Of a stretch of 64,000 nt of DNA, positions 5,975 through 50,035 are shown one piece after another. Source of the DNA: Desulfobacterales bacterium. Its GTDB lineage: Bacteria > Desulfobacterota > Desulfobacteria > Desulfobacterales > SURF-7. The translations under genes were made by a program, and so were the position numbers. The notes beneath the pieces were generated by a model. The model was not told where the DNA came from. It ran no database searches and saw only the letters and a program-made list of their open reading frames with translations. Where the stretch lies: contig JANQFQ010000013.1 of assembly GCA_028277765.1 (NCBI GenBank), forward strand, positions 1 to 64,000, in the 5' to 3' direction. Position 1 is the first letter of the stretch. Each line of letters opens with the position of its first letter.

Positions 5975-8248
5975 TTGTATGTGGTCTCACCTGTAGCCAT
6001 GATAAAAAACAAGTATATAAAATCAGTACCCTCCCTCACCGCCGAAGAACTTCAAAGGAGAAAACGGGAGGTCATAATCATCTTTGTCATCGTTGTTGTA
6101 ATCGCTCTATTAACGTTTGCCGAGACAAGGATCGTCCATTATGGTGCGAATTTTCCTGTTTCAAACACCATCCTGATGTTTATTCTTATAAACATCAACC
6201 TTCTTCTCCTTATCCTGCTGCTATATCTGACCTTAAGGAACCTGGTAAAACTCCTGTACGACCGGAAGCGAAACTTGATGGGGGCCAAATTGCGTACAAG
6301 GCTGGTTCTCTCCTTTATCGCCCTTTCACTTCTTCCCACGATCGTGCTGTTTTATGTTTCCATCATCGTCATCACAACCAGTATCGAATTCTGGTTCAAT
6401 GTTCCGGTTGAACAGGCCCTGGCCAACTCTTTAAAGGTCGGCCAGCGCATATACAGTCATGTGGAACAAAACAATCTTTTCTTTCTTAAAAGGACCGCGT
6501 ACCAGGTTAAAATACGTAAGTATTTAAAACCGGAAAAAAGCAAAGAGCTTTCAAATTACATTAAAATTGTACAGGTTGAATTTAACCACCATGCGGTTGA
6601 GGTCTATTCCGCTGACGCTGAACGACTCTCATATGCTGTAGCGCCAATACTTGAAGACAGGCCTTTCGACGTGGTTCCTTCTGATGATCTATTGCATGAC
6701 TGGCATTCAAAAAAAGCCAAAAAAATACGTGCCCCTGTTCTTAACGGGGAACTGGTAAAGACTATTGGGACAATCCCGTTTGGGGTGAGCAGGGAAGAAG
6801 CGGAGGGGTACATTGTGATCACCATTCTTATACCCCCGGACCTGTCTGAGAATATGAAATCTATTGAAAGGGGATTTGAAGGATATCAGCGTATAAAACT
6901 ATTAAAAAAACCGATTAAACGTACTTTTTTCAGTACGATATTACTGGTTTCCCTACTGGTAGTTTTTTGTGCCATATGGTTCGGTTTTTACCTGGCAAAA
7001 ACAATTACCATCCCCATCATGGAGCTTGCCGAGGGGACACAAAAGGTCGCGGAAGGAGACCTGAGCTTTAATATCGGACTTGTGGCTGATGATGAAATCG
7101 GAAGCCTTGTTGATTCATTTAATAAAATGACCAGGGACCTTCGGATCAGCAGAGAGCAGCTAGAGCTTTCCGCCAGGAAACTCTATGAGCAGAATGTTGA
7201 AATTGAGGAGAGACGCCAGTACATGGAAATCGTGCTTAGAAATGTTTCCGCAGGTGTCATTTCTCTAGATGCCAATGGTTTCATAACCACTATAAATAAA
7301 TCTGCTGAAAAAATGCTGAATCTCAAGCCTGAAAACATTCTCAGAAAGAGTTATAAAAAAATGCTGACGGAAGAGCACCTGCATCTAGCCCGGGAAGTCC
7401 GTGACAAGCTGGCCTCATCCCGGAACGATGCAACTGAACTGCAATCAAATATCACAATAGACGGCCGCCCGCGAAGTTTTATGATGCATTTTACCACGTT
7501 AAAAGATGACACCGGCAGACACATGGGTATTGTTATGGTTTTCGATGACCTTACCGAGCTCCATAAAGCCCAGCGCATGGCTGCATGGCGGGAAGTAGCA
7601 CGCAGAATTGCCCATGAAGTCAAGAATCCGCTAACTCCCATATCTCTTTCGGCTCAACGCCTCCATCGAAAATATTCAGACCGGATCAACTCCCCTGTTT
7701 TTAACGACTGTACCAGGACGATTATCGACCACGTTGACCTTATACGAAATCTCGTCAACGAATTCTCAGCGTTTGCTAGATTCCCCAGCGCAAATCCAAA
7801 GCTCTGCGACCTGCAGCCGATTATTGAAGAAACAGTGGCCCTGTATAGAGAGGGGCATAAAGATATTGAGTTTACATTCGAAACAACTGATAACATTCCC
7901 AGGCTTAATCTTGACCGGCAACATATCAAACAGGCATTAATCAACCTGGTGGACAATGCTGTGTCTGCCATAAATAAGAAGGGGAGTATATCCATATCCA
8001 TTTCTCACAATACATCTCCAAATATAGTCCGGCTTGAAGTGGCAGACACCGGTTCTGGGGTTCCCGGCAGAGAGAAGGCCCGTCTCTTTGAACCGTACTT
8101 TTCAACAAAAAAATCCGGCATGGGACTGGGACTGGCCATTGTAACAACGATTATCACCGACCATAATGGATCAATCAAGGTCGAGGATAACAAACCAAAG
8201 GGAGCACGATTTATTATTGAATTTCCCGTGCAGCCCAGATCCTCATAA
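5975..8248 (+). CDS. NtrY-like membrane sensor histidine kinase (HAMP-PAS-HisKA-HATPase); true start may be ATG at 5999
   Basis: 757 aa; TM helices, HAMP, H-box AHEVKNPLTPI, N-box LVDNAVSAI, G-box GMGLGLAIV. Confidence 0.92.
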   Translation: MYVVSPVAMIKNKYIKSVPSLTAEELQRRKREVIIIFVIVVVIALLTFAETRIVHYGANFPVSNTILMFILININLLLLILLLYLTLRNLVKLLYDRKRNLMGAKLRTRLVLSFIALSLLPTIVLFYVSIIVITTSIEFWFNVPVEQALANSLKVGQRIYSHVEQNNLFFLKRTAYQVKIRKYLKPEKSKELSNYIKIVQVEFNHHAVEVYSADAERLSYAVAPILEDRPFDVVPSDDLLHDWHSKKAKKIRAPVLNGELVKTIGTIPFGVSREEAEGYIVITILIPPDLSENMKSIERGFEGYQRIKLLKKPIKRTFFSTILLVSLLVVFCAIWFGFYLAKTITIPIMELAEGTQKVAEGDLSFNIGLVADDEIGSLVDSFNKMTRDLRISREQLELSARKLYEQNVEIEERRQYMEIVLRNVSAGVISLDANGFITTINKSAEKMLNLKPENILRKSYKKMLTEEHLHLAREVRDKLASSRNDATELQSNITIDGRPRSFMMHFTTLKDDTGRHMGIVMVFDDLTELHKAQRMAAWREVARRIAHEVKNPLTPISLSAQRLHRKYSDRINSPVFNDCTRTIIDHVDLIRNLVNEFSAFARFPSANPKLCDLQPIIEETVALYREGHKDIEFTFETTDNIPRLNLDRQHIKQALINLVDNAVSAINKKGSISISISHNTSPNIVRLEVADTGSGVPGREKARLFEPYFSTKKSGMGLGLAIVTTIITDHNGSIKVEDNKPKGARFIIEFPVQPRSS

Positions 8249-8269: not shown

Positions 8270-9628
8270 ATGTTTCCTACTATTCTTATTGTTGACGATG
8301 AACCCTCTATATTAAAATCCTTAAGTGGCATTCTTATTGACGAAGGATTTGAAGTTATTACCGCTTCCAACGGTTATGAGGCCCTGAAAATCATTGATAC
8401 AGAAGCCCCTGACTTGATTCTCCTTGATATATGGATGCCCGGCATGGACGGGATTGAAACTCTTAAGGAGATAAAAAAAGAGAACCCTTATGTCCAGGTA
8501 ATCATGATAACCGGACACGGCACCATAGAGACCGCTGTTAATGCCACAAAAATTGGCGCCTTTGACTTTATTGAAAAACCCCTTTCCATCGACAAGGTCA
8601 TTGTCTCCATAAACAATGCTCTCAATTTCAGACGCCTTGAGGAAGAAAACAGATACCTACGGAAAAAAACACTTGAAAAACATTCAATCAGCGGCAACAG
8701 CGCTGAGATACTGGCCATGAAAAAACAGATAGAAATTGCGGCGCCTACAGACGCCGTCATACTGATTACGGGTGAAAATGGTACTGGGAAGGAACTTGTT
8801 GCCCGAACCATACACCAGTACAGCGCCCGCGCAGAGCAGCCGCTCATTGCGGTTAATTGCGCGGCAATCCCCGAAGAGCTGATTGAAAGCGAACTGTACG
8901 GCCATGAAAAAGGCGCCCGGGCTGAATCTGCATCAAAATCAAGGGGAAAATTCGAACTGGCAAATAATGGTACTATCTTTCTCGATGAAGTAGGCGACAT
9001 GAGTATTAAAACCCAGTCTAAAATCCTCCGTGTACTCCAGGAACAAAAATTCCAGCGGGTAGGCGGAAGCAGAACTCTGGAAGTAGACATTCGTGTAATC
9101 GCTTCTACTAACAAAGACCTTGAAACTGAAATTGAAAACGGAAACTTCAGAGAAGAACTGTTTTTCCGTCTAAACGTCATTCCCATTGAAGTCCCTGCCC
9201 TGAGAAAGAGGATAGAAGACCTCCCCGTGCTGATTGACACATTTTTTGATAAATGCTCCAAGCAGTACCAAGCACCTGTAAAAAAAGTAAAAAAAGAAGT
9301 GCTTGATCTTTTAAGTACCTATTCATGGCCGGGCAATGTCAGGGAGCTGAAAAATCTTGTGGAACGGCTGGCAATAATGACAGAAAGTGATATTATAGAA
9401 ATATCTGATATTCCAGGGCCTTATAACACTTCACCTACTGCCTCGCAGGAATCACTTGAAACAAAATCCTTCTTAGTCAACCAGCTTAAGGATGCAAAAA
9501 AAGTGTTTGAAAAAGAATTTATCAAAAGAAAACTTCTGCAGAATGACAATAATATTACTAGAACAGCTGAAACAATTGGTGTAGCGAGAAGCTATCTGCA
9601 CAAAAAGTTAAAAGAACTCGGTTTATAG
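8270..9628 (+). CDS. NtrX-like response regulator with AAA+ and Fis-type HTH, lacking GAFTGA
   Basis: 452 aa; REC domain ILIVDDEPS, Walker A GENGTGKE, Walker B GTIFLDEVGDM, HEKGARAES where GAFTGA is expected, C-terminal HTH. Confidence 0.92.
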   Translation: MFPTILIVDDEPSILKSLSGILIDEGFEVITASNGYEALKIIDTEAPDLILLDIWMPGMDGIETLKEIKKENPYVQVIMITGHGTIETAVNATKIGAFDFIEKPLSIDKVIVSINNALNFRRLEEENRYLRKKTLEKHSISGNSAEILAMKKQIEIAAPTDAVILITGENGTGKELVARTIHQYSARAEQPLIAVNCAAIPEELIESELYGHEKGARAESASKSRGKFELANNGTIFLDEVGDMSIKTQSKILRVLQEQKFQRVGGSRTLEVDIRVIASTNKDLETEIENGNFREELFFRLNVIPIEVPALRKRIEDLPVLIDTFFDKCSKQYQAPVKKVKKEVLDLLSTYSWPGNVRELKNLVERLAIMTESDIIEISDIPGPYNTSPTASQESLETKSFLVNQLKDAKKVFEKEFIKRKLLQNDNNITRTAETIGVARSYLHKKLKELGL

Positions 9629-11600: not shown

Positions 11601-12188
11601 TCATATTTTATAGATGATACGATCTTCTGAAATTATGATATCAACATGTTTGTCATGGGATTCCATCGGAACCTGCGGAATAACCTGGCGCTCAAAAGCA
11701 AGGGCCACTTTTCGTGTTGTAGCAGGAAGCTGCGGAATAAGACGGTCATAATTTCCTTCTCCTGACCCAATTCTGCCGCCTTTTTCATCAAATGCGAGCC
11801 CAGGAACCAGAACGATGTCTATACAATCAATTGGCATCTGCTTACACTTTATCGGATTCGGCTCAAGTGAGTCGCCAAGGCCGTTAGTCAGATCATTATC
11901 CAGATCATCAATTTTCATCAATACGGTTTCATGCTTTTCAGTGTCAAAAGATGGAAGTGCAACAATTTTATTCTGGTTCAGACATCGTTCAATAATGTTC
12001 CGCATATTAATTTCACCATTACGGTTCATGTAAAGCAAAACAATATTGGATTCCATAAAATTCGCTAATTCAAAAAGTCTTTCTTCCACGGATATAGCTT
12101 TTTCAGATATCTTCTTATTAGACAAAGCCTTAAGCCGTTTTGAAATATTCGTACGAATTTCCTTTTTTTTCTCTTTAATATCCTCCAT
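11601..12188 (-). CDS. 5-formyltetrahydrofolate cyclo-ligase
   Basis: 195 aa; LVPGLAFDEKGGRIGSGEGNYDRLI motif. Confidence 0.93.
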   Translation of the reverse strand: MEDIKEKKKEIRTNISKRLKALSNKKISEKAISVEERLFELANFMESNIVLLYMNRNGEINMRNIIERCLNQNKIVALPSFDTEKHETVLMKIDDLDNDLTNGLGDSLEPNPIKCKQMPIDCIDIVLVPGLAFDEKGGRIGSGEGNYDRLIPQLPATTRKVALAFERQVIPQVPMESHDKHVDIIISEDRIIYKI

Positions 12189-16002: not shown

Positions 16003-16030
16003 CATTATATACACAGGTCTGGTTCTAGAT

Positions 16031-16264
16031 ACTGGTCATAGCGAAGCGTAGATCCCGCTTAATTTCAGCGGGGATACTAGATACTGGATGCTAGATCCTG
16101 TTTTTTTTATTTAATAAATAATGTTGCTATATATGATAAAATTGCCAAACACAAGGTTTGCCACTACGGTGTTGTTTTTCTACACACCTTTTTCGCTATA
16201 CTCCATATTTTTACCCAGCATTCCCACTAAAACCCAGCGGGATCTACGCTTCACTATGACCAGC
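16031..16264. repeat. Family B repeat element with about 29-bp inverted arms (16031-16059 and 16236-16264)
   Basis: actggtcatagcgaagcgtagatcccgct versus reverse complement of agcgggatctacgcttcactatgaccagc, 27/29 identical by eye; flanked by ccagtatccagcatc units to 16320. Confidence 0.8.
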
Positions 16265-16365
16265 ATCCAGTATCCAGCATCCAGCATCTAGCTTCTAGCA
16301 TCCAGTATCCAGCATCTAGACATACAAACTTATTACTCAATTTCTTTTATGGAATAAACAGGCCA

Positions 16366-36595: not shown

Positions 36596-36634
36596 TCCAG
36601 TATCTAGCATCAAGCATCTAGTATCAAGTATCAT
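36596..36634. repeat. Family B repeat overlapping 3' end of ABC transporter gene
   Basis: atccagtatctagcatcaagcatctagtatcaagtatca. Confidence 0.6.
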
Positions 36635-38498
36635 GAATACTCACCTTCTGAACATTTCGCCTACTATCCTTTATACTCTCCATCTGTTGCCGCCATGACT
36701 CTGCATACCTCCCCTCCTGTTCCAGCAGTTCTTCATGGGTGCCGGATTCCACGATTCTCCCCTTATCCATCACGTGGATCACATCCGCGTGCATGGCGGT
36801 TGTAAACCGGTGGGTAATAATAATAGCGGTCCGGTCTCTGGCCAGGGTGTGAAACCGATGCAGCCAGTCAGCTTCAGCCCAGGAATCCATGTCGCTGGTC
36901 GGTTCATCCAGGATAATAATCGCCGACTGCCGGATAAAGGCACGCGCCAGCGCGATCCGTTGCCATTCACCCACGCTCAGGTCTGTGCCACCTTCAAACC
37001 ATTTTCCTAAAAGCGTATCATACCCTTCAGGAAGGCTGCGGATAATACTTGCAGCACCAGCATCAATTGCTGCTTGTTCAAGCCCGGTTTGACCATGGTC
37101 AACAGTGATATCACCCAGGTTGATGTTTTCCGTAACCGTGGCATGGTACCTAACCGGTTCCTGAAATAGGATGGTAATCATGTTTCTCAGTTCATCTGTA
37201 TCCATATCCTTCAAATCGATCCCGTCCATATGGATACGCCCTTTGTCTGGGTCATAAAACCGGCAAAGCAGTTTAATCAGGGTGCTCTTCCCTGCGCCGT
37301 TCGCGCCCACAATCGCCAGTGTGCTGCCAGCGTCAATGGTCAGGTTAAATCCGTTCAGGGCAGTCCGCTGACTCAAGGGATAACTGAAATGAATGTTTTC
37401 AAAATAGATTCCTTTTTTCACACTTTCAGGAGGCGCCACCGGTTTTTCCGGAATAGTTATCAGGTTTTCAAGAGATAAAAACTTAAAAAGATCGTCAAGA
37501 AAAAGGGAGTTGCTGTAAATCTCACCAATATTTTCAAGCAGAGTCCGCATCATTCTCTGGCCGTTGTTAAATGCCTGATAAAAAAGGACCAGGTCTCCAA
37601 GGGTGACCAGCCCTTTTACTGCTTTTAACAGCATCCAGAGCATCACACCACAGGTTATTAAAAAAGCAAGACCGCCTGCTGCAATTTCCGCTATTTTTTG
37701 ATCCTTGATCAGGGCCAGATACTCTTTTCGAAGATATTTTCGCAGTTTTATATAGGCTCCCCGAAAATGCTTACCAATATTAAAGACACGGAGTTCAGCA
37801 GCTGTATCCCTGGAGGTAATCAGCCAGTCATAATACCATGTGGCCCGTTCCTTAGGGGTTGTTGCCACCCACCACTGATGAAAACGGAGCTTGTGGTGAA
37901 GGACAATAAAAAAAGCAGGGATAGTACTGATGATCAGGGCTGCCGGAAGCCACAACCCGTAAGGGATTAACACCCCGGCCATGGCAATAAAGGTAATACA
38001 ACTCTGCAGGAGATTCCCCATACCTTCCAAAAGTGCAAGGGGACGATGGTCTGATTCATTCTGTGCTCGGTACAGGTGGTCATAATAGTCAGAACAGTCA
38101 TAATAGGCCATATCCACAGACATGGATTTCTCATGTATCAGACCGCGTACATGGTCTTCGATAAATTCTGACAGCAGCGTCCGGATCCACCCTTCCGCGC
38201 TTTGAAGCACTTCCGTGAACAGGAGAACGCCCCCGAACAGGACCGCAAGGAAAATCACCGGCCGGACATGTTCCATTGCTCCGGGATTGTTCAGCAAAGT
38301 CACCAGGCTGTCAACAATGCATTTGGAAAGATACACAACAAAAACTGGCAGCATGCCCTGTAGGGCCAGCAGAACAACCCATGCAAGGGTCCATTTCGCT
38401 CCCGCGTCCCAGGCCAATGTTATGGCCTTTGACATCATGGGAACCTGGCGGACAAAGCTACCGAGTTTGTTTCTCAGAATATCCTTGTTGTCAGTCAT
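36624..38498 (-). CDS. ABC transporter, fused permease/ATPase (lasso-type RiPP cluster exporter, D-type)
   Basis: 624 aa; TM domain plus GANGAGKST, LSVGEWQR, IILDEPTSDMD. Confidence 0.92.
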   Translation of the reverse strand: MTDNKDILRNKLGSFVRQVPMMSKAITLAWDAGAKWTLAWVVLLALQGMLPVFVVYLSKCIVDSLVTLLNNPGAMEHVRPVIFLAVLFGGVLLFTEVLQSAEGWIRTLLSEFIEDHVRGLIHEKSMSVDMAYYDCSDYYDHLYRAQNESDHRPLALLEGMGNLLQSCITFIAMAGVLIPYGLWLPAALIISTIPAFFIVLHHKLRFHQWWVATTPKERATWYYDWLITSRDTAAELRVFNIGKHFRGAYIKLRKYLRKEYLALIKDQKIAEIAAGGLAFLITCGVMLWMLLKAVKGLVTLGDLVLFYQAFNNGQRMMRTLLENIGEIYSNSLFLDDLFKFLSLENLITIPEKPVAPPESVKKGIYFENIHFSYPLSQRTALNGFNLTIDAGSTLAIVGANGAGKSTLIKLLCRFYDPDKGRIHMDGIDLKDMDTDELRNMITILFQEPVRYHATVTENINLGDITVDHGQTGLEQAAIDAGAASIIRSLPEGYDTLLGKWFEGGTDLSVGEWQRIALARAFIRQSAIIILDEPTSDMDSWAEADWLHRFHTLARDRTAIIITHRFTTAMHADVIHVMDKGRIVESGTHEELLEQEGRYAESWRQQMESIKDSRRNVQKVSIHDT

Positions 38499-39665
38499 TT
38501 ATGATTGATCATATTTATTGGAAAGACGACCTGCCCTGGCCAGCGCCTCTTCCCAGGAAGCAAAATAATCGGGGAATTCTTCAACCAGCATCTGTGCAAT
38601 CATATCGAGTGTTCGACTGCCGTTTATGAGTTCAAGTATGAACCGGTCAATGTTTCCTTCTTTGCTGAGGACAGGTACATTTCTCGCAGACCTTTTTTTT
38701 AATGATGCGGATGTAAGTGGGACACCAAAAAAGGTGGACTGTTTGAATGCCGCCTTAACCGTCTGTGGGTCATGATCATCCAGCACCTCCGTCTTCCATA
38801 GCCAGGTATAATCTTCTCCCACCAGGTTTGCTGACAGGAAAACCTTAACCGTATCATTTATTTCAAACTTAAGCGGTTTTGAAAAAGGGAAAAAACCGCT
38901 TCCGTATACAAGTTCAGGATTGCCCGGAGCGTTACTGATCGAGATTCCGTCTAACACTGTTGAATCAAACCAGAGGGCAAAACCGTGAGCTGTTCCCGTC
39001 TTTTTCATAATCCAGCTCATATCCGCTTCACAATCCACGTTTTTAATTGAAGCATAATCAAAGGTTCCCCAGCATTGGGGTTCAGTGAGCAGATCTTTTG
39101 ACGCCGGCCGTGAATCACTCCAAGAGTTTATCGTAATCTCCAGTCCAGCTTTCATATCGATATCATAATCGTTTTTTGTCCAGGGTATAATAAATTGTTC
39201 ATATATCTTACCGCTATCCACTAAAGCAGCCCACATGGTCTCCTTTTGGGGTATTATGATCCCTCCTGGTTTTAAAAACCGTGTTCTGGCGTCTATAATT
39301 GTCGGCAGGAACTGTTCATACAAAGGTAAAATACCATGGATATCTGCTATGATGATATCCACTTTTTCAGGCAGGTCCACCCTTGTAGATACACCCTGAA
39401 TAAATTCAATCTTGTCAGAGAATCCGTTGTCGTTAGCAATTTCCCGTGCCACCTGGATGGCATCATCCGGTTCGATCGCGTAAACACGCCCCGCCCCGAA
39501 CCGGCATGCCATAAAGGCAAAAATTCCGGTACCTGTGCCGATATCGAGAACCCTGCAGCCTGGAGTAACGGCTTTACGCAATGCTTCCACATACGCATTG
39601 GTCCTGGTTTTATCAGTAATCATGCTGCCGTAACTTGCAACCGTATATCCTGAGACGTTAAACAT
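38499..39665 (-). CDS. Class I SAM-dependent methyltransferase (PRMT-like) with C-terminal PqqD-like extension
   Basis: 388 aa; VLDIGTGTGIFAFMACRFGAGRVYAIEP; C-terminal region resembles small winged-helix/PqqD-type domain; abuts exporter gene. Confidence 0.8.
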   Translation of the reverse strand: MFNVSGYTVASYGSMITDKTRTNAYVEALRKAVTPGCRVLDIGTGTGIFAFMACRFGAGRVYAIEPDDAIQVAREIANDNGFSDKIEFIQGVSTRVDLPEKVDIIIADIHGILPLYEQFLPTIIDARTRFLKPGGIIIPQKETMWAALVDSGKIYEQFIIPWTKNDYDIDMKAGLEITINSWSDSRPASKDLLTEPQCWGTFDYASIKNVDCEADMSWIMKKTGTAHGFALWFDSTVLDGISISNAPGNPELVYGSGFFPFSKPLKFEINDTVKVFLSANLVGEDYTWLWKTEVLDDHDPQTVKAAFKQSTFFGVPLTSASLKKRSARNVPVLSKEGNIDRFILELINGSRTLDMIAQMLVEEFPDYFASWEEALARAGRLSNKYDQS

Positions 39666-39775
39666 ATCATTCTCCTATTTATTTGCCTTCCGATGGCACA
39701 CGGATGACACAGATTCAATGGATCCTCACGGATAAATCATACCATTGGCCTAATCTCTTTTCCCTACGCTCTCCC

Positions 39776-39894
39776 GTCTAATATCCTCTTCAACCTCGTC
39801 GAGAACCGCCTCAAATCAATCAAAATCTTTTGGAAACGAGAGGCTCTTTACAGGGATCTTTGACATTAGGCCAGCAAAAAAATCTATTCTATCA
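39776..39894 (-). pseudogene. Decayed 3' fragment of a second HPr-kinase-like gene
   Basis: Minus strand SDRIDFFAGLMSKIPVKSLSFPKDFD*FEAVLDEVEEDIR, colinear with ADRIDFFAGLMSRIPVKQLSFPKDFERFEDVLDEIERDVR of 40101..41075; in-frame TGA and truncated upstream. Confidence 0.85.
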
Positions 39895-39898
39895 GATC

Positions 39899-39955: not shown

Positions 39956-40100
39956 AAAACAATTATTTACAGAACAGAAAATTCCAAAGGCGAAACCCAA
40001 CAAACGCATTCAACATTCCCACTAAAAAGAAGCGGGATCTCAGTTTCACTCCGACCAGCATCCAGAAACCAGGATCTGTTTTTCCTCTCTGCTCTTCGCC

Positions 40101-41075
40101 CTAAGCTCTTCCCTGCCTAACATCCCTTTCTATCTCATCCAAGACATCTTCAAACCTCTCAAAGTCTTTTGGGAACGAAAGCTGCTTCACCGGAATCCTA
40201 GACATTAGGCCAGCAAAAAAATCTATTCTATCAGCTTTTGCCTGAATATCAAGGGCTGAAAAAGCAGGAGAATTCTGCAGACAGGTGATAATTTTTTTAT
40301 GCCCTTTTAAAGGCCTGATACTGACCCGATCATTCGCAGTCTCCTGTTTTTCAAGAATATAAACTGCCCCTACCGGGCAGGAAGCACCCCGAAATTCTGC
40401 CCAGTCATTTACAAAAGACCTATGTTTTTGCCAGTCCTGATCGATACATTCGTGATGCCTGTTTCCGAACAGGCATTCCGCGGCATCCGGCCAGAGCCTG
40501 AGCTGGGGGTACCCCGGAAAAATATGATACGTGGAAGAGAAGCGGGTAAACGCTGCCACATCATCTGTTATAAAACCTGCCCCTCTTTTTGCCAACCCCC
40601 CTGCCAGGATCGATTTCCCACCCCCTGTGGATGAAGTAAATATTACGGCATTCCCATCCACTTCAACAGCAGATGCGTGGAGTACAGGGGTTCCAGCCAT
40701 TTCCATGTACATGGGGATGACCGCATCAAGAAAATCGATCTCCGCTACGGCCCTGAGGTCATCTATCTCTATAAAACAGACAATCTCTTTTGGACGGATG
40801 ATAAAACATGCTGTCTGCTCGAATTTAATCCAGACTTCATCCTGCCACTGACGTACCTCAACACGATTTTCAGGTGAACCCGGGCTTCTTGCCAAAAGTC
40901 GTGAACTTTCCCACTGGCTGGCCGTCCACGCCGCAACACCACAAAAAATGTCATAGGTAAACTCAGGAGAAGTATTTCCGGAAAGCAACGGGCTGATAAA
41001 CCCGCAAGGAGAGGAAAACGACAGTCCATAGACCTCCCAGGTCCGATTTAAGTTTTCTTGAATGCAGTTATCCAC
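40101..41075 (-). CDS. HPr kinase/phosphorylase C-terminal-domain-like protein of lasso-type RiPP cluster
   Basis: 324 aa; PVLHASAVEVDGNAVIFTSSTGGGKSILAGGLAKRGAGFITDDVAAF P-loop and conserved region. Confidence 0.85.
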   Translation of the reverse strand: MDNCIQENLNRTWEVYGLSFSSPCGFISPLLSGNTSPEFTYDIFCGVAAWTASQWESSRLLARSPGSPENRVEVRQWQDEVWIKFEQTACFIIRPKEIVCFIEIDDLRAVAEIDFLDAVIPMYMEMAGTPVLHASAVEVDGNAVIFTSSTGGGKSILAGGLAKRGAGFITDDVAAFTRFSSTYHIFPGYPQLRLWPDAAECLFGNRHHECIDQDWQKHRSFVNDWAEFRGASCPVGAVYILEKQETANDRVSIRPLKGHKKIITCLQNSPAFSALDIQAKADRIDFFAGLMSRIPVKQLSFPKDFERFEDVLDEIERDVRQGRA

Positions 41076-41135: not shown

Positions 41136-41318
41136 TTACGGCATCATCATCATCATCATCATCATTGGTTTTCCACCAGGTGCCATACCGTCCATCATTG
41201 GCCCTGTGGCGCCAAGAGTAAATTCAGTTACAGCACCGTACTTCTCAAGCACAGGGGTATGATACGGTTTCTTTCTGCCGTTAGTTTCTGAATATTCTTT
41301 TTTATATTCATCATTCAT
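41136..41318 (-). CDS. Lasso-type RiPP precursor peptide with Met-rich core
   Basis: 60 aa MNDEYKKEYSETNGRKKPYHTPVLEKYGAVTEFTL|GATGPMMDGMAPGGKPMMMMMMMMP; YxxPxLxxxG leader motif, Thr at -2, Gly at +1, Asp at core position 8; directly downstream of cyclase gene. Confidence 0.85.
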   Translation of the reverse strand: MNDEYKKEYSETNGRKKPYHTPVLEKYGAVTEFTLGATGPMMDGMAPGGKPMMMMMMMMP

Positions 41319-41341
41319 AGTTCTATATTATACAGTTTTTA

Positions 41342-43231
41342 TTATAAAAAAGCAACCTTTTCTCTTATCCACAGTTCAGTCATCAGCCAGGCATTCAGCT
41401 CCCAAGTGCTCACCGGCTTACCCTTCCAGTAAGCATCCCATGATTGTTGAAGCGCTCCTAAAGAGACCCATCCAATGTTAGCGGTTTTTGGAGAGTCGAG
41501 CAGCCTCCGGATCTTCTCTTTCTCCTTCTCGCGCCATCCGTAATCGGTCAACTCGTCACTGGTCCCATAGGTCAGACGGGTCCTGATCGGTTCTGGCAGG
41601 ATGCCGGCCATGGCTTCCCTCAGGATTACCTTGCAAAAGCCTTTACTAAATAGCAGATCCACAGGGAGTGAGAAAACAAACTCAAAAAGGTGTTTGTCAA
41701 GAAACGGGTACCGCCGTTCAATATGATTAGCGCCACTGAAGCGGTCCAGCTCAGCAATCCCTTTTTGCCAGTATCCGCCGAACAAAGCACCGAAAACAGA
41801 GGACTGCAGTTCAGTTTTATATACTGAAAACATGGTTCTGGTATTATCCGGCACTTTTTTAGCCAGCCAGTCTGGTTGTTTCTGTCCTGTTATTTCAGGG
41901 GAAAAAGAAGCCCTGAAAGCAAGCCGGAACTGTTCCGGCAGCATCTTACTGACTCTCGGCTTTAACAGGCCTGAGAAAAACAGTTTTCCCCTGTTCCATT
42001 CACTTGCTTCAGCAAAATATGGCCACTCCCGCCAAAGATCCTTCAGCAGTACATCACCAAGAAAATACGAGTTATGATAAGCACTCCCCTGGAGGAGCTG
42101 GTCCCCGCCATACCCGTTCAGCAGCACCCTGCATCCGTCTTGTTTTGCCTGTTGCGCCAGATCGATGGTCCCCCGCTGGCTTGAAATAATGTCCGGCTCA
42201 TCCGGCGGAAATCCCGGATCGCTACCATACCCTTTCAGGTCCCACATCCTGTCCCCGTCAAGGAATGAGGACTCCCAAGGTATGCACCGCTTCGCCAGCT
42301 GGTTCACATAAGATCTTTCATCTGCTTCCGGGAATGCTTTATAGACACATGAATACAGCCTGCTGTCTGTCCGGCTGATTCTGCCGGTCTCCTCAAGATG
42401 TTTTACCATACTCGCCACAGAAGAGGAATCCACTCCGCCGCTCACTTCAAATCCCATAGGGAATCCGGATCGGGCCCTGTCCGAGACCGCTCTTAAAAAA
42501 ATCTCTTTAAAATGATCGATATAGTCCTGGTTTGATTTATATGAGATTTTCGGGATGTTCATAAAATCAGCATATTGTGACAATTCCGCTTCTTCTCTAA
42601 CAACAACTCTATTGCCAGGTTTTAACTTGAATATGTCCCTATAAACTGTTTCATAATACCAGCTGTCGTATCGGTTTGCCAAGTAGTTGATAATCAGCCC
42701 TTCATTTATGACAGGGGGCGCTGGCATGGCAGCGATGACAGCAGATATATCTGTGGAAAAGATAAAACTGTTTTGGCTGACCATGTAATAAAACTGTTTA
42801 ATCCCTAGATGATCACGAGTACAAAAGAGTTCTTTTTTTTCACTGTCCCATACAGCAAAGGAGAAATCACCTGAAAGGTGATCCACACAGTCCTTCCCCC
42901 AGGCTGTGTAAGCCGTAAGAATCAGCTCAGGATCAGTCAATCCGTCGATGGGATACGTTACTTTACCCTTAAGGCTCTTCTTAAGATCTTCAATCCTGTC
43001 TATTCGGGCATCCGCCGTAATCCAGATCCGTCCGTCAAGACTGCACGGCTGTTTCTCAGTCATTGATTCAGGGGTGGTTTGCAGAAGGGTATGGACAAGA
43101 CCGGCACGGTCTTTTTTCCAGGTTTCTTGAGCGTCCGGCCCTCGATAAACGATCTTCTCCATCATCCGGTCTAGCAGGTGTTGATCAACCGGCGCGCCAT
43201 CCAGGTTTACAATGCCCGCGATACCGCTCAT
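41342..43231 (-). CDS. Asparagine synthetase-like lasso cyclase (C protein)
   Basis: 629 aa; N-terminal glutaminase-like fold starting MSGIAGIV, PP-loop EVSGGVDSSSVASM, RYPFLDKHLFEF. Confidence 0.9.
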   Translation of the reverse strand: MSGIAGIVNLDGAPVDQHLLDRMMEKIVYRGPDAQETWKKDRAGLVHTLLQTTPESMTEKQPCSLDGRIWITADARIDRIEDLKKSLKGKVTYPIDGLTDPELILTAYTAWGKDCVDHLSGDFSFAVWDSEKKELFCTRDHLGIKQFYYMVSQNSFIFSTDISAVIAAMPAPPVINEGLIINYLANRYDSWYYETVYRDIFKLKPGNRVVVREEAELSQYADFMNIPKISYKSNQDYIDHFKEIFLRAVSDRARSGFPMGFEVSGGVDSSSVASMVKHLEETGRISRTDSRLYSCVYKAFPEADERSYVNQLAKRCIPWESSFLDGDRMWDLKGYGSDPGFPPDEPDIISSQRGTIDLAQQAKQDGCRVLLNGYGGDQLLQGSAYHNSYFLGDVLLKDLWREWPYFAEASEWNRGKLFFSGLLKPRVSKMLPEQFRLAFRASFSPEITGQKQPDWLAKKVPDNTRTMFSVYKTELQSSVFGALFGGYWQKGIAELDRFSGANHIERRYPFLDKHLFEFVFSLPVDLLFSKGFCKVILREAMAGILPEPIRTRLTYGTSDELTDYGWREKEKEKIRRLLDSPKTANIGWVSLGALQQSWDAYWKGKPVSTWELNAWLMTELWIREKVAFL

Positions 43232-43233
43232 GG

Positions 43234-43542
43234 TTATTTGACGAGTTCCAGAAGCCCGTTTTCCGAAAGCTGTCCGATGAGAGCCTTTAGATCTGCTCGA
43301 AGTGTATCAGGGTCTGCGTCATATTCCGTTAAAAGAATATTGTACGCATCCTGAATCGTATCACTGGTGGTAAGCAGTTTCCACATGCGGTTCCCCACAT
43401 CATCAAGCCCGTAAAAAAATTCGGTCTCCATGTTGAAAACAACCATTTCATTACTGACAGCGCGTACCATCACATGGTGGGGTACGGCTGCCCGCATGGT
43501 AAAACTGAAAGGAGAGCCTTTATCTATTTTTTCGTTGTTCAT
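43234..43542 (-). CDS. PqqD-family RRE / lasso B1-type protein
   Basis: 102 aa; VVFNMETEFFYGLDDVGNRMWKLLTTSDTIQDAYNILLTEYDADPDTLRADLKALIGQLSENGLLEL. Confidence 0.9.
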   Translation of the reverse strand: MNNEKIDKGSPFSFTMRAAVPHHVMVRAVSNEMVVFNMETEFFYGLDDVGNRMWKLLTTSDTIQDAYNILLTEYDADPDTLRADLKALIGQLSENGLLELVK

Positions 43543-43628: not shown

Positions 43629-44861
43629 TCATATTTTATTGTTTTTTTTTCTATGAAAGATCTGTTTTAATACCCAGGAAAAGGAATGATGTATTTGCAT
43701 GAACCATCGGACCAGATAATAATGAAGGACCAACCTGCCTTCCCTAACCTGATAATGATACCGCATGTATTTAGCGGGCGGAAAAAGTGTGCGGAATGTA
43801 AGGACAACTTTTTCTTTTGTTTCCAGATGCTTAAAGTTCTGGAGCATCATTTCAAGCCCAAATCCTCTGTCTTCGAATTTAAACTTTCTCGGTATCTTCT
43901 CCCCTGGTGGACGTCTATCCTTTAGTTTAGAAAAAACATCAGACGGAACAGGCGTAGCAAACAGCTCTTCACACAACTTCAGTGCCTTTTCCGCAGTACG
44001 GTTCCACTTTAAATCTATGGCTTTCTCTACTATCATCTTCCAGGACAGCTCAGTTTTAGAAATCAGCAGATGAATATCAAAATACCAGATCAGATACAGC
44101 TGCTCCCTTTCATGATGCCAGACAGCATGGGCAATCAGGAAGAGCAGGTGGGCCTCTGGTTTTAGGATTGAAAATACTTGATCATTAAATGTTTCTGTCT
44201 GCACCTGCTCCATGAACCATTTATGATCTTTTTGAGACAGTAGCTCCTCGTCCCTTAATAACCTGAAATGAAGATCTATAAATACAGAGGCCGGTGGCCT
44301 CCCTTTTAGATGAAAGTGATGCGTAAGTTTTAAAAATATCGGGTGGTCCATGGGCAGCAGCTGTGAAGGATCATCATAAAACCGGTACTCCTTGGATTTA
44401 AGGATATCAAGGGAGGCTTCCCGCTGATCAAAAGGCACCAGAATATCCAGGTCAGCACAGGGTCTCAGAGCGGCATCAGGGTAAACCGTCCGGGAGAGCG
44501 CTGTCCCTTTCAGCCATACAGCATTAATTCCGCTTTCAGCAAACGCTTTAGCAAGCTCCAGGAATGCGTTTTCCAGGTGCATATCGTGCATGGCGTTCTT
44601 CCGGGACTCCTCTATCAACGGCTGCCAGTATACGCCGTCTGATATCTTGATATCTGTCTGTGTGACCATCCATAACAGTATCGGTCCCATACTGTGTTCC
44701 ATGGCCTGCTTAATGATACCAGGCCACTCACTCTCCGGAACAGAGCGGGGATCAAACTGACTGGATACGATTTCAGATAATTTTAATAATGCTTTATCAA
44801 ACACTTTTTTAACCAACGGACCATTGTCTATTCTTGAAAACCGGTTGAGTACGGAAAACAA
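43629..44861 (-). CDS. Nucleotidyltransferase-like protein (NTP_transf_5 type), RiPP cluster member
   Basis: 410 aa; INAVWLKGTALSRTVYPDAALRPCADLDILV. Confidence 0.85.
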   Translation of the reverse strand: MFSVLNRFSRIDNGPLVKKVFDKALLKLSEIVSSQFDPRSVPESEWPGIIKQAMEHSMGPILLWMVTQTDIKISDGVYWQPLIEESRKNAMHDMHLENAFLELAKAFAESGINAVWLKGTALSRTVYPDAALRPCADLDILVPFDQREASLDILKSKEYRFYDDPSQLLPMDHPIFLKLTHHFHLKGRPPASVFIDLHFRLLRDEELLSQKDHKWFMEQVQTETFNDQVFSILKPEAHLLFLIAHAVWHHEREQLYLIWYFDIHLLISKTELSWKMIVEKAIDLKWNRTAEKALKLCEELFATPVPSDVFSKLKDRRPPGEKIPRKFKFEDRGFGLEMMLQNFKHLETKEKVVLTFRTLFPPAKYMRYHYQVREGRLVLHYYLVRWFMQIHHSFSWVLKQIFHRKKNNKI

Positions 44862-46282: not shown

Positions 46283-49200
46283 TTATATAGAACTAAGAAG
46301 CTTTAATGACATACCCCGAAATTCACTTGAAACCTTTGGCTCAATTTTATAAGCGCTGGTAAACGCTTTTCTTGCTTCCTCAATCTTTTCAAGCCTCATA
46401 TACGCCTTTGCCAGATTGACCCAGACTTTATAGTCACCCGGTTCAACATTTACCGACTGGGTGTACGCATCTGCTGCTGCTTGATACTCTCCTTTCAAAA
46501 AATAGATATTCCCCATGTTGTTCATCAGGGCTGAATTGTCATGGTCTTTTGCCTTGGCTTTTGTGAATATCCTCATTGCCTCTTCCAGTTCGCCAGCTTC
46601 AGCATAAACGATCCCTAGCTGAAGATACGCGTTAACATTATCTGGATTCTCTCTGATGGCCTTAAAATATTTTTTACTGTATATTTTTACGTTTATCTTC
46701 CGTATATCCTTAAATTCATTGTGAAACTTTTTTTCAATCTCTTCACGTGTCACTTCCTTCGGCCGCCACTTATCCAAAGGAAGACTTGCAGGCTTGTACT
46801 TTACCCAGGCAGATCGCAGGTCCATTATATCGAGGCCGTTATCTTTATACGTGTAATATGTTTTGCTCCCGTTTTCCCATGCCGCTATAAATGATTTACC
46901 CACAAGGGTCACTTCAACAGGAACCCATACAATACCGTCCTCAATCACGAGCATCCCACCCATATTATCTTTCCCAAGTTCCTCCGCAGCCCCTATGGCA
47001 AACATCATTAAAATATGACCGGGCACTTCAATAAATTTTGTATTGATGGCCAGACTCTCCAGAGCAGCCGAATAGAGGATGACAAGGTCATCACAGTCGC
47101 CTGATTTCCGTTTAAGAGTCTCCCTTGGGTACTGGAGGTAGTCTACAAAATCAGTCTTACCTGATGTGACCTGATAGGAATTCGCGGGATCGAGCATATA
47201 GGTCAACCCCATCACTCCAAGCGCGTTAAATATAACACTCCCGTAAAGCAGAGGATCAGATGCGCTACTGTACTGGGTAACAATACCCCGCGTGAACTCT
47301 AGAAGTACTGAATCCTTTGTGGTCACAAATGCTGCTATCCTCTCCCGGTCATCCCATGTCATCTTGTGTTTTTCAAAGATGTTTATTGTATGGTTTTTCG
47401 AGTAGGTCTTCAATTTCCGGTTTGAGTAATAGGAAGCGCTTATTTCTGTCTGTACCGGTGTATCCTCTGTAACGTCGAGAATTTTATTATTAAAAACCGC
47501 CTTAATCTTAAGTTCCCTGATCTCACCAACAGGGAGGTCCTCCAATTCAATCTCTGACGGGAAATCCATAAAATTCCTTATACTGAATGAAATCTTAAGC
47601 TTCGATATATCCCCGGTTGTGTTATTGGTAAGCCTTATATGTCCGATACCATCATTTTCGTATACTTTATAGGTGTTTGAAAAAACATTCTGCATTTCGA
47701 GCACTTCAATTTCAAGGGGTGGACGTGTGGCAATATTGGTCTTTGTGCTTACGGAAGCCTTCTCACCTTCAACATCATCAATACTGACCGCGGAAACATG
47801 GTATGTGTATGTCGTATCCGGTTGAAGCCCCTTATCTGTGAATAGAGGTACATCCGTTCTGCCTATTTCCTTTATCTCACCATCTTTTTCCCTGTAGATA
47901 ATATAAAAGGACAGAAATTGTTCCCCGCCTAATTGCCACTTGAGATCTGCTGTAAAATCCTTTGGATATACTTGAAGGCCCTGGGGAGGAGATGCTCGAT
48001 ATTTTTGAGGAACCGCGGAAACCGATTTTGACATGGCGCTTTCATTACCGCCTCCAGCAGCAGCCGTAACCTTGTAAAAGTAAGTTGTGCCGGTGTTGAC
48101 ATCATTGTCCTTGTAATGCGGATCAACTGTTTGCGCCAGCAGTTCAAAACCATCTGTCTCTTTTCCTGACCTGTATACCAGGTATTTATTTACAATCGAT
48201 TCCCTGTTTTTGTCCCAGGTAATATTAATACTTCTTGTGTCGCCTGTCGCAGCCACATTCCAGGGCACATCAGGTGTATATGAAATTAAAAATGACTGCA
48301 GTCTCGTATTCCCTGTGTCTGATACCAATACATTAATGTTGTCCATTGCAATGATAGAAGAAGGAGATTTTATGTCCCCGTTTCCTTTACCCTCACAGCT
48401 GAATTTTCTGACCAGGCCACCTGTCTTCGTAAATATCTTGACATCACTTGCCGACCTGTCCAAGACAAACAATTTATTGTCTGCCAGAGCAATATCGATT
48501 GGATCCAACAGTAAAGGATCCTCATAAGTCCCGGCGCCGAATTCTCCTAAAAGCTTTCCCTGAGAAGAAAGTCTCATAACAGCATGTTTGCCGCGGTCGA
48601 GCACATATAGAATTCCCTCCTTGTCCACGGTAAGGGCAACCGGCTTTTTCATAAAACAGCTCCCATCTTTACTTTTACCAATAGCACTTATAAAAACACC
48701 GTCTCTGCTGAACACCTGTACCCTTTTATTGCCGCTATCAGCCACATATACAGCACCGCTGTCTGTTACAGCTATATCGCCGGGGTTGGAAAAACTGCCG
48801 TTTGAACTGCCGGATGATCCAAACCGAAAGATCTCTTTGCCATCCGGTCCTGCTTTAATAACACCCTTTTTATGGAGAATCCATAAGTTGCTGTCATAGT
48901 CAACCGCTATGGCTCCTGCTTTTATCTCCGGGAAAACGATCTCTTTTATGGACACGCCTTTTTTTAATAAATGAACCGAGCCGATCTTCCTGTCGATTGC
49001 GTAGATCTCACCTTTTCTGCCGCGCGCTATCCTGGTTATCTGTCTGCCCTCTGTCAGAGGGATACACTCCGTCCATAAGACCGAAGTGGGAGGCGGGATG
49101 CGTTCCCGATTAACATCATGAATATTTTTCGCGGGCTGAAATATATGGACAAGGTCCCTTTTCAGATCAGAAATAAATACTTTACCCTCATGGTTTAGTG

Positions 49201-50035
49201 CGATATTGGTTATACTACCGAACTGGGCACGGCTCCTCCCTTTTGAACCGAAAAAGAATAATTTCTTTAGATTAAAATCAAATATTTTAATATTCACAGG
49301 ACCGAGATCTGATACAAAAATACCATTCCTGTCTGCAGCTATTGAACGCGCCTTTTTCACATTCTTTATTGTCCTGCTGTATCGACCCTCTTGTGTATAT
49401 ATTTTAACACAGTTCTCAAACCCGTCAGCCGCGTATATATCTCCTCGATAATCAACAGCAACACTAAGCGGTTCCTTGAGCCTTGTTTTGCCTTCACCAA
49501 CCGTCCCCACTTCTCCCAGAAATACTCCGTTGGAGCCGAGCACCTGAATCCGATTGTTCCCGGTATCTGCCACGTAGATAATACCCTTATAAACACAAAT
49601 ATCCCTGGGGCTGCTGAACTGCTTTGGCCCGGAACCGCCTCTGCCGAATTTGTCAATGAACTTTCCTTTTTTATTAAATACCGCTATATGCGAGAGAGAA
49701 CTGTCAATCACATACAGCCTGTTATTAGAATAAGCGAGGCCTACCGGCTTTCGCAGAATTGTTTTCCATTTTTTTTCCCTGCCTCCCAGTTGAGCTATCT
49801 GTTTGCCGTCAGCATCCAGAACCTGCACAATACCCTTTTTCTGAGCAACATAAATAGTGCCTGACTGGTCAAAGGTTACTGATAGAGGATCCTGGACAGA
49901 GAGTTCACCAATATAGTTCACCTGTTGCATTGCCAGGGCAAGGGGAGGAGCTATAAAGACCAGAATTATAATCAACAACGTTTTTCTCATGATCACCTCT
50001 GATAGATCTACTGGTTGGTTTCTGGAGTTCAACAA
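46283..50035 (-). CDS. Large exported NHL-repeat / fibronectin III / transglutaminase-like / TPR protein (likely start about 49990)
   Basis: 1250 aa; repeated FSSPRDICVYKGIIYVADTGNNRIQVL NHL units, two FN3 units, SGDCDDLVILYSAALESLAINTKFIEVPGHILMMF, C-terminal TPRs. Confidence 0.85.
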   Translation of the reverse strand: MLNSRNQPVDLSEVIMRKTLLIIILVFIAPPLALAMQQVNYIGELSVQDPLSVTFDQSGTIYVAQKKGIVQVLDADGKQIAQLGGREKKWKTILRKPVGLAYSNNRLYVIDSSLSHIAVFNKKGKFIDKFGRGGSGPKQFSSPRDICVYKGIIYVADTGNNRIQVLGSNGVFLGEVGTVGEGKTRLKEPLSVAVDYRGDIYAADGFENCVKIYTQEGRYSRTIKNVKKARSIAADRNGIFVSDLGPVNIKIFDFNLKKLFFFGSKGRSRAQFGSITNIALNHEGKVFISDLKRDLVHIFQPAKNIHDVNRERIPPPTSVLWTECIPLTEGRQITRIARGRKGEIYAIDRKIGSVHLLKKGVSIKEIVFPEIKAGAIAVDYDSNLWILHKKGVIKAGPDGKEIFRFGSSGSSNGSFSNPGDIAVTDSGAVYVADSGNKRVQVFSRDGVFISAIGKSKDGSCFMKKPVALTVDKEGILYVLDRGKHAVMRLSSQGKLLGEFGAGTYEDPLLLDPIDIALADNKLFVLDRSASDVKIFTKTGGLVRKFSCEGKGNGDIKSPSSIIAMDNINVLVSDTGNTRLQSFLISYTPDVPWNVAATGDTRSINITWDKNRESIVNKYLVYRSGKETDGFELLAQTVDPHYKDNDVNTGTTYFYKVTAAAGGGNESAMSKSVSAVPQKYRASPPQGLQVYPKDFTADLKWQLGGEQFLSFYIIYREKDGEIKEIGRTDVPLFTDKGLQPDTTYTYHVSAVSIDDVEGEKASVSTKTNIATRPPLEIEVLEMQNVFSNTYKVYENDGIGHIRLTNNTTGDISKLKISFSIRNFMDFPSEIELEDLPVGEIRELKIKAVFNNKILDVTEDTPVQTEISASYYSNRKLKTYSKNHTINIFEKHKMTWDDRERIAAFVTTKDSVLLEFTRGIVTQYSSASDPLLYGSVIFNALGVMGLTYMLDPANSYQVTSGKTDFVDYLQYPRETLKRKSGDCDDLVILYSAALESLAINTKFIEVPGHILMMFAIGAAEELGKDNMGGMLVIEDGIVWVPVEVTLVGKSFIAAWENGSKTYYTYKDNGLDIMDLRSAWVKYKPASLPLDKWRPKEVTREEIEKKFHNEFKDIRKINVKIYSKKYFKAIRENPDNVNAYLQLGIVYAEAGELEEAMRIFTKAKAKDHDNSALMNNMGNIYFLKGEYQAAADAYTQSVNVEPGDYKVWVNLAKAYMRLEKIEEARKAFTSAYKIEPKVSSEFRGMSLKLLSSI

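Follow-up and report, generated by a model that had tools for sequence, protein, structure and literature searches.

Within the stretch of DNA from an uncultured Desulfobacterales bacterium analyzed here (64,000 nucleotides, hereafter the window), a gene for a short peptide raises the question of whether a run of eight methionines is a functional part of a lasso peptide or has another origin. The open reading frame, at 41136-41318 on the minus strand with an ATG start and a TAA stop, translates to MNDEYKKEYSETNGRKKPYHTPVLEKYGAVTEFTLGATGPMMDGMAPGGKPMMMMMMMMP (60 aa), which is made up of a leader (residues 1-35) and the predicted core GATGPMMDGMAPGGKPMMMMMMMMP. The leader features listed in a first-pass annotation of the same DNA, in which the strand was left unstated, are correct: YHTPVLEKYG matches YxxPxLxxxG exactly, Thr is found at position -2, and the core begins with Gly1 after TL. 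The sequence also confirms its count of 11 Met in the 25-residue core, of which three (M6, M7, and M10) lie outside the uninterrupted run of eight in the terminal MMMMMMMMP. Asp8 is the sole acid of the core, and G1-D8 is, as had been claimed, the only lasso ring possible; both residues are positioned for a macrolactam, with the acid inside the 7-9 interval for Asp or Glu. The core has a single hydroxyl residue, Thr3, which falls within the predicted ring, and it lacks both Ser and Arg. The NCBIfam lasso leader models match the precursor weakly and under their cut-offs (NF033528, E 0.0011; NF033521, E 0.018).

In the region ahead of the precursor (41319-41360), a perfect TATAAT is located 8 bases from the start codon, and a clear Shine-Dalgarno sequence was not seen there. 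The precursor may have a nearly leaderless transcript of its own.

Gene content of the cluster

The precursor gene (A) belongs to a cluster of seven genes, all on the minus strand, in the order nucleotidyltransferase, B1, C, A, kinase, methyltransferase, and ABC exporter, with B1, C, and A adjacent and co-directional. B1 (43234-43542) is a PqqD-like leader-binding protein (RRE; PF05402, E 6.5e-16). Among proteins of solved structure it most resembles TbiB1 (5v1u/5v1v, E 1.3e-8), which serves as the RRE in a known lasso system. C (41342-43231) is a lasso-type macrolactam synthetase with an asparagine-synthetase fold (PF00733, E 1.9e-41), and scores 400 bits against the 'lasso peptide isopeptide bond-forming cyclase' model NF033535, under the cut-off of 525. 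It begins MSGI, with Ser2 at the position where the glutaminase has Cys2, and retains an intact SGGxDS ATP motif. An alignment of eight C proteins, this one and seven from the related lasso clusters described below, shows no variation in either feature.

The nucleotidyltransferase (43629-44861) is of the NTP_transf_5 type (PF14907, E 3.9e-43), which is also found in other lasso clusters that contain a kinase. On the other side of A, the HprK-like peptide kinase (40101-41075) matches PF07475 (Hpr_kinase_C) with an E of 2.4e-5, under the cut-off, and retains the His-Lys-Asp-Asp residues (VLHAS...TGGGKS...ITDD). The next gene encodes a PRMT-like class I methyltransferase (38499-39665; PRMT6 4y2h, E 9.9e-29) with an extra C-terminal segment, which shows three helices only in the predicted structure (m9076200eec06, pLDDT 67). 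This segment was considered as a PqqD-type RRE and rejected on account of this fold and an hhalign probability of 4.6%. The ABC exporter (36624-38498; PF00005, E 2.1e-31) is without a peptidase domain, neither C39 nor transglutaminase, and is 50% identical to the ABC protein of a related lasso cluster (L045). We propose that the kinase, the methyltransferase, and the nucleotidyltransferase are putative peptide tailoring enzymes.

Signs of REARRANGEMENT were found between the kinase and the methyltransferase genes, in the form of a decayed kinase copy and a 66-bp intergenic repeat. The former, 123 bp long (39773-39895, minus strand; 77% DNA identity to 40112-40234), is what is left of the 3' end of another kinase gene and carries a frame-breaking stop; a tandem second copy of the kinase was probably once present at this locus. 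The repeat (40011-40076) recurs at 16216-16281 with 82% identity. A diverged inverted copy is located near 16019-16075, and a tandem array of the 7-bp unit CCAGCAT at 16260-16316.

Comparison with known lasso systems

Kinases of the PadeK type (PadeA/PadeK, ThcoK, SyanK) have the His-Lys-Asp-Asp residues and act on a C-terminal Ser (PMC9266682). Paeninodin-type clusters resemble the present one in having a split B1, C, a transporter, and an HprK-like kinase with these residues (PMC9266682), whereas B2 is lacking here and a PRMT-like methyltransferase is added. Paeninodin-type substrates end in a conserved Ser, unlike the Ser-free core with its poly-Met end, and the phosphorylation site typical of the kinase subtype is thus absent. 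The pseudomycoidin cluster, compared here from its description, likewise combines a kinase (PsmK) with a nucleotidyltransferase-family gene (PsmN) (PMC9266682, PMC8498205), but the C-terminal Ser that takes a phosphate and a hexose in pseudomycoidin has no counterpart here.

Related clusters in the same order

With the kinase and C as queries, 391 genomes of the order to which this bacterium belongs yielded seven lasso clusters (L036-L041 and L045), and within this order kinase homologues adjoin lasso genes. Their C proteins are 24-32% identical to the one studied here, and no close relatives of C were found in GTDB species genomes by conserved-peptide patterns. Precursors were found beside four of the lasso C genes. 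These are distant (29-33% identical), and share Y19, P22, Y27, G28, and Thr34 (Thr -2) with the present precursor; in three of the four, Asp-Gly is found at the putative 8-9 residue ring closure. With the similarity of B1 to TbiB1, the Y..P....YG and Thr-2 positions common to these four make the assignment as a lasso-type precursor well supported. The C-terminal Ser is absent in the related precursors too, and its lack is thus a feature of the group. The tail is the most variable segment among the lasso precursors compared. The four tails (...KYLGTYDLKTSK, ...NYGTARYST, ...FLPPPIRK, and ...EYDEEDDID) are unrelated to each other and unlike the tail studied here, and none of the four contains a Met run.

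Two of the seven clusters, L041 (genome G145) and L038 (genome G081), share with ours the C-A-kinase gene order, the leader motif, Thr-2, and Asp-Gly. L041 also has a nucleotidyltransferase gene and a PRMT-like methyltransferase (2290-3489 of L041, 41% identical). Both differ from the present cluster in having B2 directly upstream of C and a gene for an FAD-type oxidoreductase, as well as in their tails, which are rich in Lys, Ser, Thr, and Tyr and have no Met run. Other RiPP-like clusters, among them at least one with a radical-SAM gene (L060), contain more distant relatives of the methyltransferase. Although the enzyme has the PRMT fold, the present core offers no Arg, and no link between arginine-type methyltransferases and lasso tailoring was found in the open-access literature.

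One of the seven clusters, L039, encodes two PqqD-like proteins (8792-9112 and about 11675-11960), one adjoining B2 and the other adjoining C, which suggests divided leader binding. In a further locus (L065), a Gly/Cys-rich precursor (7497-7760) with a YEPPIVKEIG leader is found beside a PRMT-like methyltransferase and an ABC exporter, and probably represents a different RiPP class.

The missing B2 protease

Lasso maturation normally depends on B2, a cysteine protease of the transglutaminase-like type that works together with the RRE, and the invariance of Thr-2 has been attributed to their interaction (PMC10885120). A B2 gene is present in each of the seven related clusters (PF13471, E 2e-15 to 1e-25). 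No B2, separate or fused to B1, the nucleotidyltransferase, C, or the ABC protein, was found in the present cluster, and the gap of about 3 bases from the end of B1 to the start of C leaves no room for it there. Transporter-fused and nucleotidyltransferase-fused arrangements of B2 exist elsewhere; a fusion to the ABC protein (cochonodin type) or to the nucleotidyltransferase was considered and rejected, as no such domain was found. Also rejected, by size and architecture, was a 1250-aa NHL/TPR protein (46283-50035) that matches the transglutaminase-like DUF553 weakly. In the genome as a whole (assembly 92% complete), PF13471 and a profile built from seven B2 sequences retrieved a single protein, 493 aa long with a transglutaminase domain and encoded on contig C50; it was dismissed as far larger, in another context, and matching only in part.

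It is possible that B2 has been lost, that it is too distant to be recognized, or that it lies in the unassembled part of the genome. Since B2 is absent from the locus, maturation by the locus alone is conjectural. Pseudomycoidin is, by the title of the paper describing it, reportedly synthesized without leader and leader peptidase. The first-pass classification as a lasso-type precursor is strengthened by the neighboring B1 and C genes and by the distant precursors, all four of which have the leader motif and Thr-2 in common with it and three also Asp-Gly, but the absence of B2 had been overlooked. The precursor is likely of the lasso type, in a genuine cluster without B2. The class is known, and what sets this cluster apart is a striking but unconserved tail together with a missing protease.

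Origin of the methionine run

The eight-Met run is encoded by a perfect triplet repeat, (ATG)8 on the minus strand or (CAT)8 on the plus strand, at 41142-41165 (TRF and repeat counts). No other perfect trinucleotide run of at least five units exists in the window, none arose in 200 Markov shuffles of it, and (ATG)6 or longer is found at one further site in the entire 4.9-Mb genome. The Met run is well beyond chance. As Met has a single codon, any Met run is a pure (ATG)n triplet repeat, and the purity of the repeat therefore does not bear on selection either way.

The 96 nearest genomes contained no relative of the precursor other than the precursor itself, and none was found in the plasmids searched. 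A strict pattern, (ATG)5 downstream of Y..P.L..YG, had no match in viral contigs, and a looser Met-run pattern across 396 genomes of the phylum recovered this genome alone. The sole strict-pattern match in GTDB species genomes (L070, ANME-2c) proved spurious, because the opposite strand there carries a coding ORF whose product contains DDDDDD. A Met-rich lasso tail was likewise not found in the open-access literature. The Met run is a singleton among the sampled genomes of the phylum, the GTDB species genomes, and the viral contigs. As the relatives' tails are also unrelated, the economical explanation is that slippage expanded a tolerant tail, and the eight methionines most plausibly represent an in-frame (ATG)n expansion rather than a conserved metal site. 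We infer this expansion from a single genome, and no second strain shows another repeat length, which counts against it.

In the first-pass annotation, the tail had been proposed to suit Cu(I)/Ag(I) binding or redox sensing, and absence of the run from homologues had been named as evidence to the contrary. Such absence is what we observe, and it weakens the functional proposal, although the homologues are distant. As a selected soft-metal or redox-sensing element of a lasso peptide, the tail would draw on the high proportion of Met in the core, including the three residues outside the repeat, and copper proteins are known in which clustered thioethers coordinate Cu(I). The known copper sites, on the other hand, have a spaced MxM/MxxM pattern unlike eight adjacent Met, no copper or silver gene was recognized among the proteins examined around the cluster, and triplet expansion suffices to explain the run. 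A metal site in the tail has no genomic support and a low probability, and a selected element of this kind is very unlikely.

Alternative explanations

In our judgment, the gene rather probably encodes a lasso-type RiPP precursor of the kinase/nucleotidyltransferase subtype, with eight methionines acquired by slippage. The joint occurrence of kinase and nucleotidyltransferase in lasso clusters (PsmK/PsmN; PMC9266682) is in line with this reading. A point against it is B2, missing here and present in all seven relatives, which could sit in the missing part of the genome. The failure to find B2 in the genome would also fit an incomplete or decaying cluster in which, after the loss of B2, the precursor has ceased to be processed and its tail drifts freely, the Met run being debris in a relic gene. 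The degraded second kinase end and the dispersed repeats between kinase and methyltransferase point the same way, as does a kinase that is present though the core has no Ser. Yet all seven ORFs are open and of full length, B1, C, and A are tightly spaced, C and the kinase have kept their catalytic motifs, and the leader and Thr-2 are intact; we regard decay as unlikely. A missing B2 could, moreover, indicate a non-lasso RiPP of the asparagine-synthetase type, in which B1 and C operate without leader-coupled threading and yield, for example, a simple branched-cyclic peptide, and leader-like motifs and PqqD proteins do occur in non-lasso radical-SAM RiPP clusters such as L060. This is most improbable, as C aligns with the cyclases of B2-containing lasso clusters and has Ser2 in common with them, G1 and D8 are present, and Thr-2, which in lasso systems is accounted for by the action of B2 (PMC10885120), is kept here.

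A one-base indel in the AAAA run that precedes the repeat, whether real or an assembly error, could itself have put the tail in the wrong frame. By frame computation, an extra A in GGAAAACC turns poly-Met into the acidic tail ...GGKTNDDDDDDDDAVNNYPQHKKTLH, and the related precursor of L037 ends in the acidic EYDEEDDID. The frame as read, GGAAAACC(ATG)8CCGTAA, ends cleanly one codon past the repeat, however, and three of the four relatives have no acidic terminal run, leaving such an indel highly unlikely. The boldest reading would be a functional poly-Met tail, as a soft-metal ligand or redox-sensitive plug, combined with B2-independent maturation and tailoring by the PRMT-like methyltransferase, possibly on Met or Lys, and we give this combination very little probability.

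Proposed pathway

For the lasso-type precursor with a slippage-derived tail, homology suggests that B1 would bind the YxxPxLxxYG leader, which would be cleaved after TL by a protease encoded outside the cluster. C would then activate Asp8 and close the G1-D8 ring, the kinase, methyltransferase, and nucleotidyltransferase may tailor the peptide, and the ABC protein presumably exports it; the Met run of the tail would have arisen by in-frame slippage and not as a conserved metal site. If the product is made, it would be an extreme test of lasso tail content, with eight thioethers beside a threaded ring, and of the part that repeat slippage plays in diversifying RiPP cores. A cluster with a methyltransferase and without B2 also offers a direct way to ask whether an unclustered or different protease can serve in lasso maturation, and the PRMT-like methyltransferase common to two lasso clusters is a candidate for a new tailoring step.

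The same genome contains at least two further PqqD-containing RiPP-like loci, L076 (genome G000, contig C59) and L077 (contig C64), with radical-SAM-type genes and signal-peptidase-like proteins nearby.
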